DNA of 27,492 nt from a virus: positions 1 through 27,492 of IMG/VR virus record IMGVR_UViG_3300025154_000335; one strand, given 5' to 3'. The translations under genes and the position numbers were made by a program. The notes beneath the pieces were generated by a model that searched no databases, was not told the origin of the DNA, and worked only from the letters and a program-made list of their open reading frames with translations. Positions within the stretch are counted from its first letter, which is position 1. Every line of letters begins with the position of its first letter. Positions 5,196 to 16,810 of this stretch are shown here, piece after piece.

Positions 5196-5257
5196 CACTT
5201 CCAGGCCGCTTTGACTGCCGGTGGATGAACGGCCAGGCATAGGCATAGGATAAAAAG

Positions 5258-5287
5258 AGAGGTGCCAGTATCGGGCCTCTTTTTTTG
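5258..5287 (+). terminator. Rho-independent terminator
   Basis: AGAGG pairs with CCTCT with partial inner pairing (TGCC against GGG), followed by a run of T to 5286. Bases 5196-5257 just before it hold no gene that I can see. Confidence 0.7.
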
Positions 5288-5314
5288 TGGCATAAAATAA
5301 TTTCCACTTTCCTG

Positions 5315-5342
5315 TTGACTATGACTATGACTATGATATAAA
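5315..5342 (+). promoter_or_regulatory. Promoter with TGACTA direct repeats in the spacer
   Basis: TTGACT (5315-5320), a 16-base spacer and TATAAA (5337-5342). The -35 and spacer hold three copies of TGACTA in a row (5316-5333), which could bind a regulator. The next gene starts at 5371 with GAGGGAG as SD. Confidence 0.7.
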
Positions 5343-5370
5343 TACACCATCACTTATAGAGGGAGTCATT

Positions 5371-9004: not shown

Positions 9005-9502
9005 ATGCCAGAATTTGAGTCTCGCCAAAAAATGTCAGTATCTGCAAAAAAACGTTGTACTCCCGAATGGAGAAAAGCTACGTCAGAAAAGTTCAGGACA
9101 AAGATTGATGACATGAAACTGGCAGAGTTGTACTCCAGCGGCATGACGCAAGATGAATGTGCCGCTACATTGGGTGTGTCTAGGAAAGTGGTTGCTAACG
9201 CTATGAAGAGGTTAGGAATTAAACCCAGGGTGGCGGCAAAGCGCAACCAAACTGGGCCAGATAACCACATGTGGAAAGGGTCGGCAGCTAATTTGGTTTG
9301 CAAGCACAAGCGTTTGTATAGAGCGTTTGGCCAGCCAGAAAGATGTGATGTTTGCGGCACCACAGATAGTTCCAAAACGTATGATTGGGCAAACTTGACA
9401 GGGGATTATGATAACCCCGCTGATTACAGGAGGATGTGCAGATCATGCCACGCTCAGTACGACAACAAAATAGTGAATTTGCTAGGAAGGAAGGAGGTTT
9501 AA
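9005..9502 (+). CDS. HNH homing-type endonuclease with HTH
   Basis: A 165-residue protein. The middle holds a helix-turn-helix (YSSGMTQDECAATLGVSRKV). The C-terminal HNH nuclease has CDVC, the YDWANLTG core, and CRSCH closing the zinc site. ATG 9005 follows AACAAGGGGG. The gene has its own promoter and sits exactly at motif I of the methyltransferase gene, which is disrupted upstream and restarted downstream. That is the behaviour expected of a free-standing homing endonuclease that targets a conserved codon stretch. The stop at 9500-9502 abuts ATG 9503. Confidence 0.85.
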   Translation: MPEFESRQKMSVSAKKRCTPEWRKATSEKFRTKIDDMKLAELYSSGMTQDECAATLGVSRKVVANAMKRLGIKPRVAAKRNQTGPDNHMWKGSAANLVCKHKRLYRAFGQPERCDVCGTTDSSKTYDWANLTGDYDNPADYRRMCRSCHAQYDNKIVNLLGRKEV

Positions 9503-10227
9503 ATGAGTTGGCACTTTTCGCGGGCGCTGGTGGAGGCGTATTGGGCGGAAAACTCCTCGGATGGCGCACAGTCTGTGCCGTCGAGCAAGAGCCCTATGCC
9601 GCTAGCATACTTATGCAGCGACAGAATGACGGCATTCTCGACCCGTTCCCTGTCTGGGATGACGTTTGCACCTTTGACGGAAAGCCTTGGCGCGGATGTG
9701 TTGACGTGGTTTCTGGCGGGTTTCCCTGCCAGGATATCAGCGCCATGGGTAAAGGTGCAGGACTCGACGGAGAGCGTTCAGGGCTTTGGGGCGAAATGCA
9801 GCGGATCATTAGCGAAGTTCGACCCGCATACGTCTTCGTGGAAAATTCACCAGCGCTCACTATTCGGGGGGGAGTACGAGTCATTGCAGACCTTGCCTAC
9901 CTGGGGTATGTGGGAAAATGGGGAGTTATTGGGGCCGGTGACATTGGAGCTTCGCACCAAAGGGACAGAATGTGGATTGTGGCATCCGACACCAGTAAGA
10001 ATGGATTACAAGGGGGCGAACTTCAGAGGCGAAAAACAAAGGGAAAGCCAACTAAAAGAATGGCTCCATGTCCGATTTTCCCAAGGCATGAAGACGACTT
10101 ATCCCCACCCTTTGTTCTTGGAGCAGGTAATGGGATGGCCGATAGGGTGGACCGAACTAAAGCCATTGGCAATGGGCAGGTTCCAGCAGTGGCTGCGCTC
10201 GCATGGAGGACGCTAACATGCAACTAA
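9445..10227 (+). CDS. C5-cytosine DNA methyltransferase (Dcm-like)
   Basis: Up to 260 residues with the C5-methyltransferase motifs in order: I (FAGAGGG, 25-31), IV (GGFPCQDIS, catalytic Cys95), VI (VENS, 132-135), VIII (QRDRMWIVA, 172-180) and X (IGNGQVP). The segment between VIII and X is short, so the target-recognition domain is small. It transfers a methyl group from SAM to cytosine C5, probably to protect phage DNA. The start is uncertain: ATG 9445 lies inside the HNH gene with AGGAGG 11 bases upstream, and TTG 9508 lies 10 bases after AAGGAGG. The best-placed ATG nearby (9503) is in another frame and begins a different long reading frame across the same DNA. Confidence 0.85.
   Translation: MPRSVRQQNSEFARKEGGLNELALFAGAGGGVLGGKLLGWRTVCAVEQEPYAASILMQRQNDGILDPFPVWDDVCTFDGKPWRGCVDVVSGGFPCQDISAMGKGAGLDGERSGLWGEMQRIISEVRPAYVFVENSPALTIRGGVRVIADLAYLGYVGKWGVIGAGDIGASHQRDRMWIVASDTSKNGLQGGELQRRKTKGKPTKRMAPCPIFPRHEDDLSPPFVLGAGNGMADRVDRTKAIGNGQVPAVAALAWRTLTCN
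9503..10216 (+). CDS. Antiphase reading frame over the methyltransferase (possible overprinted gene)
   Basis: A 237-residue frame, shifted +1 from the methyltransferase and lying wholly within it. It has the best start signals of the region: AAGGAGG (9491-9497), five bases, then ATG immediately after the HNH stop. The product begins MSWHFSRALVEAY, has a DPHTSSWKIHQRSLFGG block and ends MGWPIGWTELKPL...RFQQWL. I recall phage proteins annotated with the same beginning and end, so this frame may be kept across phages. It could be a real overprinted protein, or an echo of conserved codons with the ribosome site actually serving the methyltransferase. No catalytic motif is visible. Confidence 0.45.
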   Translation: MSWHFSRALVEAYWAENSSDGAQSVPSSKSPMPLAYLCSDRMTAFSTRSLSGMTFAPLTESLGADVLTWFLAGFPARISAPWVKVQDSTESVQGFGAKCSGSLAKFDPHTSSWKIHQRSLFGGEYESLQTLPTWGMWENGELLGPVTLELRTKGTECGLWHPTPVRMDYKGANFRGEKQRESQLKEWLHVRFSQGMKTTYPHPLFLEQVMGWPIGWTELKPLAMGRFQQWLRSHGGR

Positions 10228-10486: not shown

Positions 10487-10714
10487 TTGAACGAATGTCC
10501 AAGGTGTAGAGGCGCTGGCAAAGTAAACACTGAGGCCGAAAACGGAGAACTGGGGGAGAGTTTGAAGCGACAGCGTGAAAAGCTCGGCATCTCACTAAGA
10601 GCCGTCGCCCGTCACATGTGCAAATCACCGACATACCTTTCTAGGCTAGAACATGGGCGCGAAAGGTGGAACCCAGAACTGGAAAGAGCGTACCGCGATG
10701 CAATCAGCCAGTAA
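10487..10714 (+). CDS. XRE-type HTH regulator with N-terminal Cys motif
   Basis: A 75-residue protein from TTG 10487, six bases after AAGGAGG; no ATG has a comparable site. It opens with CPRCRGAG, a half zinc-finger like the DnaJ repeat. An XRE HTH domain follows (ESLKRQREKLGISLRAVA...SPTYLSRLEHGRE). It overlaps the fusion gene by 17 bases and shares its promoter, so it probably regulates that cassette, perhaps by acting on 10427-10456. Confidence 0.8.
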   Translation: MNECPRCRGAGKVNTEAENGELGESLKRQREKLGISLRAVARHMCKSPTYLSRLEHGRERWNPELERAYRDAISQ

Positions 10715-13013
10715 AAAAGACCAGCTCTCTTTTTTTGAAGATTGCCCCGGAGCAAAAAGGTATCGGCCACTTCTTACCGTTGCCGAAAACTTTAAAGGAG
10801 TTTTAGACGTTGACACGGTAAAGGGCTGTAGCCTTGGAATGGCAGCGTATCCAGATGGGGGGTGTTACGGTGAATGTTACGCCAACAAAATTGCGTCAAG
10901 GTATGGAATTGATTTTACCACAAGCGTGTCAAGGAAACCAAGCCGCCGACATTTTGCCGACAGTTTCCAAGCTGTAAAAAGACACCCCGCCGCATGGTAC
11001 AGGATCGGGACGGCTGGCGATCCCTGCCACGATTGGGACAACACTCTTTCGGTGTGTGAGGCGTTGCAAGGTACAGGCAAAACACCGGTCATTATCACTA
11101 AGCACTGGTTGCCACTTTTGGACAGCCACATAGTGCGGTTGCAAAAGCTTTCAGCGGTTGTAAATACCTCCACAAGCGGAATGGACAGCGATAGCGAAAT
11201 AGCTCACCGTGTGGGGCAAATGACGCGGCTGGAATCGGCGGGGGTGCAAAGCGTGAACAGGGTTGTTACTTGTGAGTACGGGGTGTCTGATTGGGCTAGA
11301 AGCTGCCATGACAAGCAACGATATTTGCTATCGCTTGGGAAGGTAATTGACAACCCTCTAAGAGCAAGCAGCGCCAACAAGAGAGTAATAAACGGGGATA
11401 TAGTCGTAACAAGAAAAGATGAATCAATAGGTGGGGGGAAGTTTGTTTCGTTACACCGGCCAAATGTTTACCTGGGCTGTTGCAAAAGCTGTCCAGACCA
11501 ATGTGGCGTTAACCGATCGGCATTAAAATTACATAGCGAAAAAAGGAGAGGGGAACAAATGAGCGAAATACAGGGGATTCTATTTGGCCACGAACCGAAA
11601 CACAAAGTCACCGTTCCAAGGGCCAACAAGGTAATAGCACCGCCGCATCAAAACGTAGAATACCTGTACGTCAAAAGCGTTATAGGGTCCGGTTACGAGG
11701 CAGATGTGGCGCAATTAGCTATAGAGGATAAGATAGCTTATCGTGCGGCCCGCAAAAACATGCAGATTCATTCTGCAATCATCCTCAAAATAGACGGCGA
11801 GTTTTGCGGGTTTTTCACGTTCCAAAACAACGAGGAAGTCGGGGAGTTTTGCCTGTTGCAATCGACCATAAGGCCGGACCGGTTCAACTTTGACATTTAC
11901 GACAACATGGTCAAAGCGATCATAGCCCAGAATACCAAGGGCTACCCGATGATAATTACCACTGATCCGAAGAGCAAGTTTGAAACTCCCAAGCGGTTTA
12001 AAAGCCTTGGGTTCAAGACTTACCTCACCATGTCTGGGTACGAGTACATGGTGTACGGCGACGAAAAGGATGTGAGAATGAAACTTCTTGCTCACATCAC
12101 CATGACAAACGTGTGGAACTCGCTTAAAGGTGATTGGTTGCGTCTCAAAAAGGAATGGAACGCACAGATTGAAGCGGCTGGGGAAAAGTACAATATTCCC
12201 AACCCTAAATTTGCTTCCCGTGAAGGGTGCTGGCAGGGGGAAAGCGGTTTTTCTAACGTGGTCCTTTCGACCCATACCGTGGAAGACGGAGAGATCAAGA
12301 CCGACAAAGTGAAGTCTCACAACGGCAACGCTTCTGTGTTGGACCCCGTAGCCTGTGAGGTGATCCTCCGGTTCTTCATGCCTAAAAATGGCCGGTACGT
12401 GTACAACCCTTTTGGCGGCGGGGTACAGATGGGTTTTGTTGCCGGTGCGTATGGGTATGACTACGTTTCCAGCGAGATCAGGCAAAACCAGTGCGACACC
12501 AACAATGCTATTTGCCAGGACTTGAATAGCGCAAAATGGATCAAAAGCGACAGCTCTACTTATACCCCCGAAAACCGCCCCGATCTGGTTTTCAGTTGCC
12601 CCCCCTATTACAAGGTGGAAAAGTACATCGATTACGACGGCAAATCACCAGCTGGGGAGATTAACTCCATCGACACCTACGAGGGTTTTAGAAATACCCT
12701 TTTTGCCGGTTACAAAAAGGCCATTGAAGCCTTAAATGATAACTGCTTTTTTGTGGTGATGACCGGAGACAGCCGGGACAAAAACGGGTCGTATCATTGC
12801 CACGAATCCGAGACAGAGATATTTTTCAAGGAACAGGGCTTGTCGGTCTACAACAAAATAATCTACCTTGAATGCGAGTTTACGCGGCTTGCACAAGCTA
12901 AAAAGACGCTGAACTACCGCAAATTCCCCAAGCGTGAGCAGAAAATCATAGTTGCATACAAGGGTGATCCCACGCTTATCAAAGACCTGTTCCCACCCAC
13001 CGGGAGGCTATAA
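10698..13013 (+). CDS. Radical-SAM-like / GNAT (Mom-like) / DNA methyltransferase-like fusion
   Basis: A 771-residue protein with three parts. Residues 1-285: a radical-SAM-like region with Cys44, Cys56 and Cys60 in a GGCYGECYA context, plus a second Cys group (CCKSCPDQC, 261-269) for an auxiliary cluster; it recalls phage Gp37/Gp68 or gp88 proteins. Residues about 315-455: a GNAT-type fold (ILKIDGEFCGFFTF, then FKSLGF) resembling Mom-like acyltransferases. Residues about 540-755: an amino-methyltransferase-like domain with motif I as NPFGGG (570-575, Asn replacing the usual Asp) and motif IV SCPPYY (633-638). It probably makes a complex DNA base, perhaps on adenine N6 or cytosine N4. ATG 10698 is chosen; ATG 10653 lies inside the regulator gene. 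The chemistry is inferred. Confidence 0.75.
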   Translation: MQSASKKDQLSFFEDCPGAKRYRPLLTVAENFKGVLDVDTVKGCSLGMAAYPDGGCYGECYANKIASRYGIDFTTSVSRKPSRRHFADSFQAVKRHPAAWYRIGTAGDPCHDWDNTLSVCEALQGTGKTPVIITKHWLPLLDSHIVRLQKLSAVVNTSTSGMDSDSEIAHRVGQMTRLESAGVQSVNRVVTCEYGVSDWARSCHDKQRYLLSLGKVIDNPLRASSANKRVINGDIVVTRKDESIGGGKFVSLHRPNVYLGCCKSCPDQCGVNRSALKLHSEKRRGEQMSEIQGILFGHEPKHKVTVPRANKVIAPPHQNVEYLYVKSVIGSGYEADVAQLAIEDKIAYRAARKNMQIHSAIILKIDGEFCGFFTFQNNEEVGEFCLLQSTIRPDRFNFDIYDNMVKAIIAQNTKGYPMIITTDPKSKFETPKRFKSLGFKTYLTMSGYEYMVYGDEKDVRMKLLAHITMTNVWNSLKGDWLRLKKEWNAQIEAAGEKYNIPNPKFASREGCWQGESGFSNVVLSTHTVEDGEIKTDKVKSHNGNASVLDPVACEVILRFFMPKNGRYVYNPFGGGVQMGFVAGAYGYDYVSSEIRQNQCDTNNAICQDLNSAKWIKSDSSTYTPENRPDLVFSCPPYYKVEKYIDYDGKSPAGEINSIDTYEGFRNTLFAGYKKAIEALNDNCFFVVMTGDSRDKNGSYHCHESETEIFFKEQGLSVYNKIIYLECEFTRLAQAKKTLNYRKFPKREQKIIVAYKGDPTLIKDLFPPTGRL
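11543..11561 (+). promoter_or_regulatory. Internal SD and in-frame ATG inside the fusion gene
   Basis: AAGGAGAGGGG (from 11543) precedes an in-frame ATG at 11559, codon 288. The site falls exactly at the border between the radical-SAM-like part and the GNAT part, and would give a separate 484-residue GNAT-methyltransferase protein. Confidence 0.6.
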
Positions 13014-13703: not shown

Positions 13704-13838
13704 ACAATTTAATACAGCATTGAAAACTCACCGTGCAGGGTTGAGTGTTCACCATAAGGATTTGACTCCCACTATCGGGGGTCAGTCTGACAGCGCCCCT
13801 CTGAGACTGCACTCTTGGAGGGGCGCTGTTCTTTTTTT
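13704..13838 (+). ncRNA. Structured leader or small RNA (about 135 nt)
   Basis: Between a promoter and an intrinsic terminator lie three hairpins: ACTCA/TGAGT (13726-13730 with 13742-13746), GACTCCC/GGGGGTC (13764-13770 with 13777-13783) and the terminator stem. There is no convincing reading frame. It could be a cis-acting attenuator for the HNH gene that starts 11 bases later or a free small RNA. No known RNA family recognised. Confidence 0.5.
13790..13838 (+). terminator. Intrinsic terminator/attenuator before the HNH gene
   Basis: A perfect 12-pair stem, ACAGCGCCCCTC (13790-13801) with GAGGGGCGCTGT (13818-13829), then TCTTTTTTT. The SD of the HNH gene (TAGGAGCGG) comes right after it, so read-through decides HNH expression from this promoter. 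Confidence 0.9.
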
Positions 13839-13848
13839 AGGAGCGGCA

Positions 13849-14229
13849 ATGAGCACATATTACTCTCCCGGCTGTACTAACGAGAAGGCCCACATTTGCA
13901 ACAATTGTGAAGAGGACGATGGTAGGCCAACTCTTTACTGGCAAGCGTCGGACTTCGACCTTTGCCACCAATGTTTGCTTAATTTGACAACATATCACGT
14001 TGACCCTCAGTTGAAAAACCACGAAGCAATTACCGTCCGCAGAATGGCAATTCCCGAAAGCTTACGTAATGAGATTTTTGAGCGTGATGGGAATAAATGC
14101 ACCGTCTGCGGAAGCGATAACCATTTGCAGGTGGATCACGTTGTCCCTTTTTCTAGAGGTGGCAAGACAACGAAAGATAACATGCAGACGCTTTGCAAAT
14201 CATGCAACCTTACAAAGAGGGCCAGATGA
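13849..14229 (+). CDS. HNH endonuclease (McrA-type)
   Basis: A 126-residue protein. The N-terminal half carries Cys pairs (CNNC at 17-20, CHQC at 39-42) forming a zinc ribbon. The C-terminal half is a classical HNH nuclease: CTVCG, VDHVVPFSRGG with the catalytic His, N-x-x-x-LCKSCN. ATG 13849 follows TAGGAGCGG. It lies between accessory genes and the replication initiator and may be a homing gene or a nuclease in DNA metabolism. It ends in an ATGA overlap with the initiator gene. Confidence 0.85.
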   Translation: MSTYYSPGCTNEKAHICNNCEEDDGRPTLYWQASDFDLCHQCLLNLTTYHVDPQLKNHEAITVRRMAIPESLRNEIFERDGNKCTVCGSDNHLQVDHVVPFSRGGKTTKDNMQTLCKSCNLTKRAR

Positions 14230-14909
14230 TGCAAGAGGGATACATCAAACTTCACCGGTGTATTCTGGATAGCAGTTGGTCCCGACACCCTGACTTTGTA
14301 GCTGTATGGGTCTACTGCTTGCTGCGAGCCAACTACAACCCCGCCGACGTGGTAACAAAAGGTGGTGCCGTTGTGCATCTTGAGCCGGGGCAGTTTATTA
14401 CGTCAAGGGAGCAAATCAGCGCAGGAACGGGAGTTCAAGAATCGAAGGTGGAGCGCATACTGAAATTGTTCAAAAGTGAACAGCAAATTGAACAACAGAA
14501 TAAAGGGAAATTCCGTGTAATAACAATAACTAACTGGTTTAAATACCAAGCGCGTGAACAGCACAATGAACAACAAATGAACAACAAACGAACAACAGAT
14601 GAACAGCAAATGAACACAAACAAGAAGGTAAAGAAGGAAGAAGAAGGTAAAGAAGAAAAGAAAGAAACGGGGGATGTAAAATTCTTTTTGCCTACACCTG
14701 AACAAGTCCAAACATACATGGATGAGATTGGGTTTAGATCAGATGGGGAACATTTTGTAGATTACTACTCAGCAAAGGGATGGATGATCGGCAAAAACAA
14801 GATGAAGGATTGGAAAGCAGCAGTCAGGACCTGGCGGAAAAACAGCACCCCTAAGCAAGAAAATAATCCACAAGAAAGGCCGGACTACATGAGGGGGGTG
14901 CAAATCTGA
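14226..14909 (+). CDS. Phage replication initiator / replisome organizer
   Basis: A 227-residue protein. The N-terminal part (1-105) resembles the phage replisome-organizer winged-helix domain: YIKLHRCILDSSW, FVAVWVYCLLRANY, LEPGQFITSREQIS. A very polar Asn/Gln/Lys/Glu linker (about 112-155) follows. The C-terminal part has FVDYYSAKGWMIGKNKMKDWKAA, shared by DnaD-like or helicase-loading phage proteins. ATG 14226 overlaps the HNH stop, with AAAGAGGG upstream; ATG 14229 is equally possible. It would bind the iterons inside its own gene and recruit the primase-helicase encoded immediately downstream. Confidence 0.8.
   Translation: MMQEGYIKLHRCILDSSWSRHPDFVAVWVYCLLRANYNPADVVTKGGAVVHLEPGQFITSREQISAGTGVQESKVERILKLFKSEQQIEQQNKGKFRVITITNWFKYQAREQHNEQQMNNKRTTDEQQMNTNKKVKKEEEGKEEKKETGDVKFFLPTPEQVQTYMDEIGFRSDGEHFVDYYSAKGWMIGKNKMKDWKAAVRTWRKNSTPKQENNPQERPDYMRGVQI
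14476..14620 (+). other. Iteron array, candidate origin of replication
   Basis: Two iterons at 14476-14498 (GTGAACAGCAA, ATTGAACAACAG) and six head-to-tail units at 14554-14620 around ATGAACAACAA, five of them spaced exactly 11 bp (14566, 14577, 14588, 14599, 14610). A purine-rich, A-rich stretch follows (14621-14672). Because 11 is not a multiple of 3, the repeat is kept in DNA, not protein. The layout recalls lambda ori inside gene O. Confidence 0.7.
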
Positions 14910-16810
14910 TGGAAATTTCAGAGGTAGTAGAGTCGTTAACCTCGCAGGTTAGCACCATTGCAAAGATGCTACTTCCTGGGGGGCGTGAAGTCGGTCGCGA
15001 ATGGGAAGCTGGATCGACAGGCGGCGAATCGGGCCGCAGTTTAAAGCTTTGCCTCTCAGGAGACAAAAAGGGCAAATGGGCGGACTTTGCTACAGGGGAG
15101 GGCGGAGACCTGCTCGACTTGTGGTGCGTGGTTAAAAACATGCCTCTTGCCTCAGCATTGCAGGAAGCCAAAGCATACCTTGGTGTATCTGAACCGGAAT
15201 TTCTTAAAACCAAGGAGAGGAAGTTTCGCAAACCTTCCCCGAAGGGAGCGCGTAAGGTTGCCGCTGCCTCGCCGGTCATGAAATATCTTTTTGACACGCG
15301 CAAACTGTCGCCGGAAACGCTAGCAGCTTACAGGGTAGCCGAGGCCGACAAGATAGGCCCATGGGCAGGGTGGAAGCGGCAGGAACCTTGGAGCGGCCCG
15401 TGGGTTTGCTTTCCGTCATTCCATGGTACCGACTTGGTTTCGATGAAATACCTTCACTTGGAGCGCAAAGAAGGAAAGAAACAAACGCTAGTTGAGGCAG
15501 GGTGCAAGCCAATATGTTTTGGCTGGCAGGCGATAGACCCCAAATCAAGGCAGATTGTCATAGCCGAGGGCGAGATTGACGCTATGACGCTGCACCAGTA
15601 TGGACACCCCGCCGTTTCGGTTCCTTTCGGAGCTGGCAAGGGCGAAAAGCAGCAGTGGGTTGATTATGATTGGGATGAGTTGGAGCGGTTTGAAACCATT
15701 TACCTTTGCATGGATAACGACAAGGAGGGACACGTTGCCGTTGAGGAATTGGTATCACGGCTAGGAGTCCACCGTTGTCGGATAGTGACCCTTCCCAAAA
15801 AGGATGCTAACGAGTGCTTGCAGTCTGGCGTTACAGAAAAGGAGATCGCCGTTTGCTTTAGGGAGGCACGGTATATCGAACCGGAGGAGCTGAAAAGAAC
15901 CAGCGACTACACGCAAGCCGTAATAGACCAATTTTACCCACCAGGCGGAAAGGTGCCGGGCTTTGATATGCCATGGCCAAAGATACCCTTTCGTTTCCGC
16001 AGGGGGGAGGTTTCAATAATTACCGGATGCAACGGCCATGGTAAAAGCCTGATGTGGGGGCAAGTAATTCTTGCCGGTGCGCTGCAAGGCGAAAAGGCTT
16101 GTATTGCCTCGTTTGAAATGGCCCCGGCAACGACTCTTGCTCGCATAGTCAGGCAAGCCACAGCTCACAAGAAGCCGACTCAAAAGACCATAGATGAATC
16201 GCTAGAGTGGCTGTCTGACAAGATTTGGCTGTTTGCCCTTGTAGGGACGGGCAAAACGGATCGCTTGCTAGATGTTTTTGAATATGCGTTTAAGCGGCAT
16301 GGGGTCCGCCACTTCCTGATTGATTCTCTTATGAAGCTAGGGCTGAGTGAGGACGACTACAACGGGCAAAAAGCCATAATGGAAAAGCTGTGCGATTGGG
16401 CAAACGCTACCGGGGCACATATCCACCTGATAGCTCACCCCCGCAAGGAAGATGAAAGCATACCCGCTGGGAAAATGGCTATCAAGGGGACAGGGGCATT
16501 AACCGACCTTGCCTTCAACGTGTTTTCAGTGTGGCGCAACAAAAAGAAAGAGCAAACTATGCAGTCGTACCGAAATGGGGAAGCAGTGGAATTGCCGAAA
16601 GGGAAAAAGATTGAAGATATTATGACCATGCCGGATGCAATATTGGTTTGCGATAAGAGCCGCAACGAGGAAGGAGTTGAGGGGAAGTATGGGCTTTTTT
16701 ACGACTCCGATTCGCTGCAATATTTGAGTGTTCACGGTTCTCGGCCCATTGACTATTTCGGGGAATATAAGAGGTATTTTGAGCAGGACGAAGATACGGG
16801 GGGTTACTGA
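14909..16810 (+). CDS. Primase-helicase (TOPRIM + DnaB-like RecA domain)
   Basis: A 633-residue bifunctional replication protein resembling T7 gp4/Twinkle. Residues 40-75 (GKWADF...GGDLLDLW) look like a primase N-terminal domain without the zinc Cys set. The TOPRIM domain holds AEGEID (219-224) and DNDKEG (269-274). The C-terminal helicase has Walker A GCNGHGKS (373-380) and a later IDSLMKLG and LIAHPRK block typical of DnaB-family ATPases. It unwinds DNA and may make primers, although loss of the zinc Cys leaves priming uncertain. ATG 14909 shares one base with the previous stop. It follows the initiator gene, forming a replication unit. Confidence 0.9.
   Translation: MEISEVVESLTSQVSTIAKMLLPGGREVGREWEAGSTGGESGRSLKLCLSGDKKGKWADFATGEGGDLLDLWCVVKNMPLASALQEAKAYLGVSEPEFLKTKERKFRKPSPKGARKVAAASPVMKYLFDTRKLSPETLAAYRVAEADKIGPWAGWKRQEPWSGPWVCFPSFHGTDLVSMKYLHLERKEGKKQTLVEAGCKPICFGWQAIDPKSRQIVIAEGEIDAMTLHQYGHPAVSVPFGAGKGEKQQWVDYDWDELERFETIYLCMDNDKEGHVAVEELVSRLGVHRCRIVTLPKKDANECLQSGVTEKEIAVCFREARYIEPEELKRTSDYTQAVIDQFYPPGGKVPGFDMPWPKIPFRFRRGEVSIITGCNGHGKSLMWGQVILAGALQGEKACIASFEMAPATTLARIVRQATAHKKPTQKTIDESLEWLSDKIWLFALVGTGKTDRLLDVFEYAFKRHGVRHFLIDSLMKLGLSEDDYNGQKAIMEKLCDWANATGAHIHLIAHPRKEDESIPAGKMAIKGTGALTDLAFNVFSVWRNKKKEQTMQSYRNGEAVELPKGKKIEDIMTMPDAILVCDKSRNEEGVEGKYGLFYDSDSLQYLSVHGSRPIDYFGEYKRYFEQDEDTGGY

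Follow-up and report, generated by a model that had tools for sequence, protein, structure and literature searches.

Does the run of short direct repeats inside the replication initiator gene of this phage mark its origin of replication, or are the repeats there for another reason? The gene lies in a tailed-phage record of 27,492 bases, the whole of which is hereafter called the window; genes for terminase and portal proteins are located at 22.5-26.4 kb. We favour the reading that the segment at 14476-14672 is an in-gene iteron origin, bound by the winged-helix protein encoded from 14226, with an A-rich element that opens and a helicase that is recruited, and we give this reading a probability of roughly 85%. 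The repeats themselves, selection at the DNA level, a conserved geometry, covariation between the repeat unit and the recognition helix, the A-rich element, the protein fold and the gene neighbourhood were all computed, and are taken up in turn below.

The initiator gene, its product and its neighbours

The gene (14226-14909, + strand, 227 aa) matches PHROG 2514, DnaD-like helicase loader, with an E value of 4e-37. Together with the winged helix-turn-helix model of its product and the primase/helicase gene that comes next, this match bears out the initial assignment of the gene as an initiator. The Pfam model Phage_rep_org_N (PF09681) gave a weak match of 20.5 bits, below its curated cut-off of 23.3, and the RepA_N domain (PF06970) gave no Pfam match in the protein up to E 0.1.

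The protein consists of a winged-helix N-terminal domain, a linker encoded by the iterons and a C-terminal helical domain. In the AlphaFold2 model (mean pLDDT 80.7, and above 90 over most of the N-domain) the N-domain is a winged helix in which residues 72-84 form the predicted recognition helix, residue 61 begins the preceding helix and residues 88-101 make up the wing. The codons of the predicted recognition helix (ESKVERILKLFKS) lie at 14439-14477 on the + strand, and residues 72, 73 and 77 of this model are among the columns that track iteron identity best. A PDB profile search with the initiator returned generic winged helices only. In structure comparison, 4pql aligned over initiator residues 1-122 (Z 8.5, 100 residues, rmsd 5.4), within the range seen for other winged helices; 4pql and 4pt7 are entries that we take to be pSK41-type RepA. 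This similarity of fold is generic, CRP-type winged helices scoring on par with RepA. The C-terminal domain (residues 152-207, FFLPTPEQVQTYMDE...GWMIGKNKMKDWKAAVRTW; 14679-14846, + strand) is strongly conserved in many relatives and is the probable contact with the helicase or primosome.

With no gap after the initiator gene there follows a primase-helicase gene (14909-16810, + strand; phrog_239, E 6e-110; Toprim_2 and AAA_25), which encodes a TOPRIM domain and a KaiC/DnaB-like ATPase domain. On the upstream side, an HNH endonuclease gene overlaps the start of the initiator gene, and a strong terminator-like hairpin (18 pairs, then T7) lies just upstream of the HNH gene, at 13789-13830.

Other parts of the window hold features of their own. 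The gene at 16968-17747 matches phrog_887, queuine tRNA-ribosyltransferase (E 1.5e-60), and its product is possibly a DpdA-like enzyme for 7-deazaguanine modification of phage DNA. A cytosine-5 methyltransferase gene is found at 9436-10227, and a 786-aa ORF occupies 10653-13013; the C-terminal third of the latter matches phage DNA methyltransferases and its first ~540 residues are without a family match. At 2198-2622, a 15-bp repeat of 28 copies encodes a pentapeptide-repeat protein (PF00805, E 1e-64) and is an ordinary in-frame protein repeat. Rfam detected no RNA family over the window.

Eight repeat units in the initiator gene

Eight GAACA units are present in the initiator gene on the + strand, starting at 14478, 14490, 14556, 14568, 14579, 14590, 14601 and 14612, all of them within 14476-14672 as originally described. 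The start-to-start intervals are 12, 66, 12, 11, 11, 11 and 11 bp; the exact 11-bp period that had been reported for five units holds for the last five starts. Upstream, TGAACAGCAAA and TGAACAACAGA form a pair of iterons with a spacing of 12 bp (14477-14499, + strand) in the codons directly past the recognition helix. The first unit of the array proper (TGAACAGCACA; 14555-14565, + strand) stands 66 bp past the upstream pair and 12 bp before the next unit, and is followed by five iterons with an exact 11-bp period (14567-14621, + strand) and the consensus TGAACARCAAA, the last of which (14611-14621) is degenerate beyond TGAACA. The upstream pair falls in codons of the structured part of the protein, which means that the codons of a folded domain, too, have had to accommodate the DNA function. 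Three 11-bp units make 33 bp, and for this reason the array also encodes an imperfect protein repeat of 11 residues (EQQMNNKRTTD/EQQMNTN).

Over the 27.5-kb window the longer motif GAACARCA has eight + strand occurrences, of which seven fall in the initiator gene and one elsewhere, and it is absent from the - strand. TRF independently calls an 11-bp array at 14555-14620, with six copies and 83% matches. The lag-11 self-alignment score of the initiator gene is 28.5, whereas 1000 random sequences from a first-order Markov model matched to its composition averaged 5.2 and reached 14.5 at most, and the rest of the window scores no higher than 8.5 at this lag. The GAACA repeats are thus not a product of chance.

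Selection on the DNA across relatives

Relatives of the initiator gene were gathered from viral contigs (80 loci), from prokaryote genomes (69 loci) and from phage records (175 matched, of which a selection was fetched). The comparison set comprises 75 non-redundant relatives at less than 70% identity, and includes lambda, P22 and 80alpha as outside comparisons. Conservation of the period had been proposed as a check on the original prediction, and 11 proved to be the best self-alignment lag in 47 of these 75. A lag-11 score of at least 13 was reached by 53 of the 75 initiator genes, and by 1 of 428 equally long segments taken from their flanks. When codons were shuffled synonymously, with the protein kept, 53 of the 75 relatives were significant at p<=0.01. 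For the window gene alone the score was equalled or beaten in 2 of 300 such shuffles, a moderate result that is explained by the skew of its Q/N/T codons, and it is the family result that carries the argument. Asparagine codons point the same way: AAC and AAT stand at 117:26 in the arrays and at 48:161 in the following 60 nt, with a p value of 8e-29 that is nominal, the counts pooling related sequences. Such a flip of codon choice at the array edge is unlike what a protein-level explanation predicts. Across the relatives, the lag of 11, the synonymous shuffles and the asparagine codons together support the earlier proposal that selection acts on the DNA and that the repeat is not a protein repeat.

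Other spacings exist as well. The units are 12 bp apart in three relatives (L076, L082 and L084) and in the O gene of CUS-3, and 23 bp apart, i.e. 11+12, in three more (L074, L079 and L163); the 11-bp rule thus describes a strong tendency that has exceptions. In one further relative (L057:2989-3834) the initiator gene carries a much longer array of ~12-13 units in which the 33-bp lag is dominant, an arrangement consistent with growth in three-unit blocks that preserve the reading frame.

A recurring layout and a changing unit

The geometry was compared by using each locus's own consensus as probe and the units of other loci as control. Relative to the array start, own-unit copies occur at -12 in 47% of loci, at -78 in 32% and at -90 in 34%, with further own-unit copies at -79 and -91 coming on top of these, versus 1-2% for the units of other loci at -12, -78 and -90. 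The 12-66-12-11-11-11-11 layout, with 66 or 67 bp as its long interval, is therefore family-wide and not a peculiarity of this phage. Grouped at <=3 mismatches, the units of 53 loci make up about 19 classes, among them GAACAACAA, CTAACAAACAA, AACCAACGAGC, GAAACGCAAAC, GGGCACAGCAG and TTGTCCAACGG. The relatives keep the spacing and have many times exchanged the sequence of the unit, apparently in step with changes in the DNA-reading part of the protein.

Unit distance is correlated with N-domain distance (Mantel rho 0.31, reached in 0 of 999 permutations). Once overall distance is corrected for, unit identity is followed most closely by columns E72, R61 and S73, and next by I88, K95 and R77. 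Residues 84-92, which are encoded by the upstream pair, were excluded from the contact-set test, and the five highest-ranking of the remaining columns are all among the 21 of 87 predicted to contact DNA (p 6e-4). With the GAACA-type loci removed, S73 ranks first. Label permutation gave column values of up to 0.293, against 0.314 observed. Given permuted values so near the observed one, and a simple correction that allows only partially for shared ancestry, the covariation is good support, and not proof, for recognition of the unit by the initiator.

The A-rich element beyond the array

The A-rich, purine-rich stretch that had been noticed past the iterons is real. It extends over 14618-14672 (+ strand), contains AAGAAGGTA-type 9-mers and is a candidate DNA unwinding element. 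Of all 50-mers in the 27.5-kb window, the one that starts at 14618 is richest both in A (33) and in purine (47). The 60-mer at 14625 is in the window's lowest 0.5% for predicted duplex stability, a low value that is not unique within the window. The least stable 60-mer of the window lies in the intergenic gap at 5235-5370, which also has a terminator-like hairpin then T7, plus three and a half copies of TGACTA.

Among 53 loci, the 60 nt past the array are 53% A and 71% purine, and their A+T content is 71%, as compared with 60% over the remainder of the gene. Many relatives whose units differ have an element that reads much like ACAAACAAGAATGWAAAGAATGAAAAGAA, with AAGAATGWA 9-mers; in the window it reads AAGAAGGTAAAGAAGGAAGAAGAAGGTAAAGAAG. 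It is natural to suppose that its role may be strand opening, as its position and composition resemble those of the AT-rich element beside the lambda iterons.

Comparison with known origins

A literature search for 11-bp phage iterons yielded Salmonella phage L as the sole direct precedent; reviews of phage replication modules may list more. Gene 18 of phage L contains six imprecise 11-bp repeats (TGTCCAACGGA), described as the likely origin (PMC8022706), and the phage L record (MW013502) and its sequence confirm these 11-bp repeats, annotated there as a putative ori. The O protein of phage L is homologous to the window initiator (hhalign E 1.5e-20), and both phages have 11-bp direct repeats within the initiator gene and an AT-rich tail. 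They differ in the unit and in its arrangement, which in phage L is two groups of three units separated by a gap and in the window a contiguous array with an upstream pair. They differ also in the next gene, which encodes a DnaB-like helicase in phage L and a primase-helicase here. The O genes of the lambdoid phages HK022, HK629 and Pantoea PA-1 likewise have 11-bp repeats (TACCAGCAGAT, TTGTCCAACGG and TTACCAACAGA), which, unlike those of the window, form split clusters and carry no origin annotation in their records. The O proteins of HK022 and HK629 share the N-domain with the window initiator (hhalign E 3e-19 and 3e-21).

The lambda-type plan that had been proposed for this locus is supported, with one refinement. 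Iterons lie in the initiator gene as they do in lambda, P22 and phage L, and at lambda O/ori-lambda and P22 gp18 they are followed, as here, by an AT/purine-rich region. The N-domain, however, has no detectable relation to lambda O (E 0.17 in hhalign, compared with one lambda sequence) or to P22 gp18 (E 0.028), neither value being significant. The iterons, too, are unlike those of lambda: lambda O and P22 gp18 have iterons of ~18-24 bp, the period in the window is 11 bp, the four ~18-bp iterons of ori-lambda have no equivalent here, and the best lag of lambda O is 20.

Origins within initiator genes are found in other systems too. In pSK41-type RepA the origin is inside the rep coding region and a DnaD-like winged helix was seen bound to the Rep boxes, and plasmid pPR9 is said there to carry a phage-type N-domain (PMC5703833). 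RepA of this type has about 13% identity to the initiator and different repeats, with a winged helix that may be comparable in structure. Staphylococcus phage 80alpha (ORF20) and SPP1 (G38P/oriL) have the origin within the initiator gene, as in our reading of the window; for 80alpha, orf20 is not complementable in trans, which is genetic support for an in-gene origin (PMC5499656). The repeats of 80alpha are spaced at 30 bp, without an 11-bp array, and ORF20 therefore backs the in-gene principle only and gives the 11-bp array no experimental footing.

Alternative explanations

In iteron plasmids there are binding-site arrays with roles in autoregulation or in incompatibility and titration. The array might serve the initiator in one of these ways while the origin lies elsewhere, and all the evidence for binding, that is, the covariation and the geometry, would apply equally to such a site. 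We nevertheless consider this improbable: the array is in the middle of the gene, a search around it for a promoter-like site found none, the adjoining A-rich element recurs past the array in relatives with different units, and the corresponding in-gene region is annotated as the origin in phages L and P22.

Far less probable is that the repeat is a feature of the protein, an 11-residue repeat in a Q/N/T-rich linker, with the DNA repeat as its by-product. That 33 bp equal 11 codons, that the EQQMNNKRTTD/EQQMNTN repeat is present and that L057 has a dominant 33-bp lag would all fit this explanation, but in most loci the score is higher at lag 11 than at lag 33, and the lag-11 signal withstands synonymous shuffling in 53 of 75. 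Moreover, the amino acids of the linker differ between unit classes while the 11-bp period is constant, and the choice of asparagine codon switches at the edge of the array. Binding of the array by a different protein, such as a host factor or a recombination or packaging protein, is the least probable of the three, as unit identity varies together with the recognition helix of the initiator, the array is kept in the initiator gene across very different phages and hosts, and the terminase genes are ~8 kb away.

A model for initiation

If the segment is indeed an in-gene origin, one may envisage initiation as follows. The winged-helix domain of the initiator would bind each TGAACARCAAA unit via the helix starting at residue 72. 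Monomers along the array would follow one another at roughly one turn of the helix and lie on nearly the same side of the duplex; the upstream pair at -90 and -78 would also be bound, so that the DNA could wrap or loop into a compact complex. The resulting strain may open the A-rich element adjoining the last unit, and the C-terminal domain would then recruit the helicase, probably the product of the primase-helicase gene that follows. Recognition of the units has the support of the covariation, and the binding itself, the wrapping, the melting, the loading of the helicase and the actual start of replication are inferences, those after recognition drawn from lambda- and DnaD-type systems. A GC-skew analysis, suggested as a check in the original prediction, reveals no clear switch of sign along the fragment; it is therefore uninformative on the position of the origin.

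Implications

This kind of system is already known, through phage L and through the in-gene plan of lambda, P22 and pSK41 RepA. For the unit itself, the layout of an upstream pair with a contiguous array, and the family-wide constancy of the period while the sequence changes, the literature searched gave no earlier description. We lean towards the broader view that tailed phages across many bacterial phyla share one winged-helix initiator fold that reads origins of constant 11-bp phase and similar layout, in which the unit is repeatedly rewritten together with positions 61, 72, 73 and 77 of the protein.

On this view an 11-bp unit is read in three frames, and the origin would therefore dictate the amino acids of the initiator's own linker; since adding or dropping one unit would throw the gene out of frame, the number of units should be constrained. 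In-gene origins couple an initiator to its own origin, and how the specificity of such pairs changes is poorly known. Dozens of matched pairs of protein and origin, with constant spacing and about 19 unit classes in 53 loci, make swap experiments, and the prediction of an origin from its initiator gene, straightforward. If this broader view is true, the specificity of an origin could be predicted from sequence. The family also supplies a simple computational marker of replication origins in uncultured phages, since the position of the array can be foretold and the gene that holds it is readily recognised.
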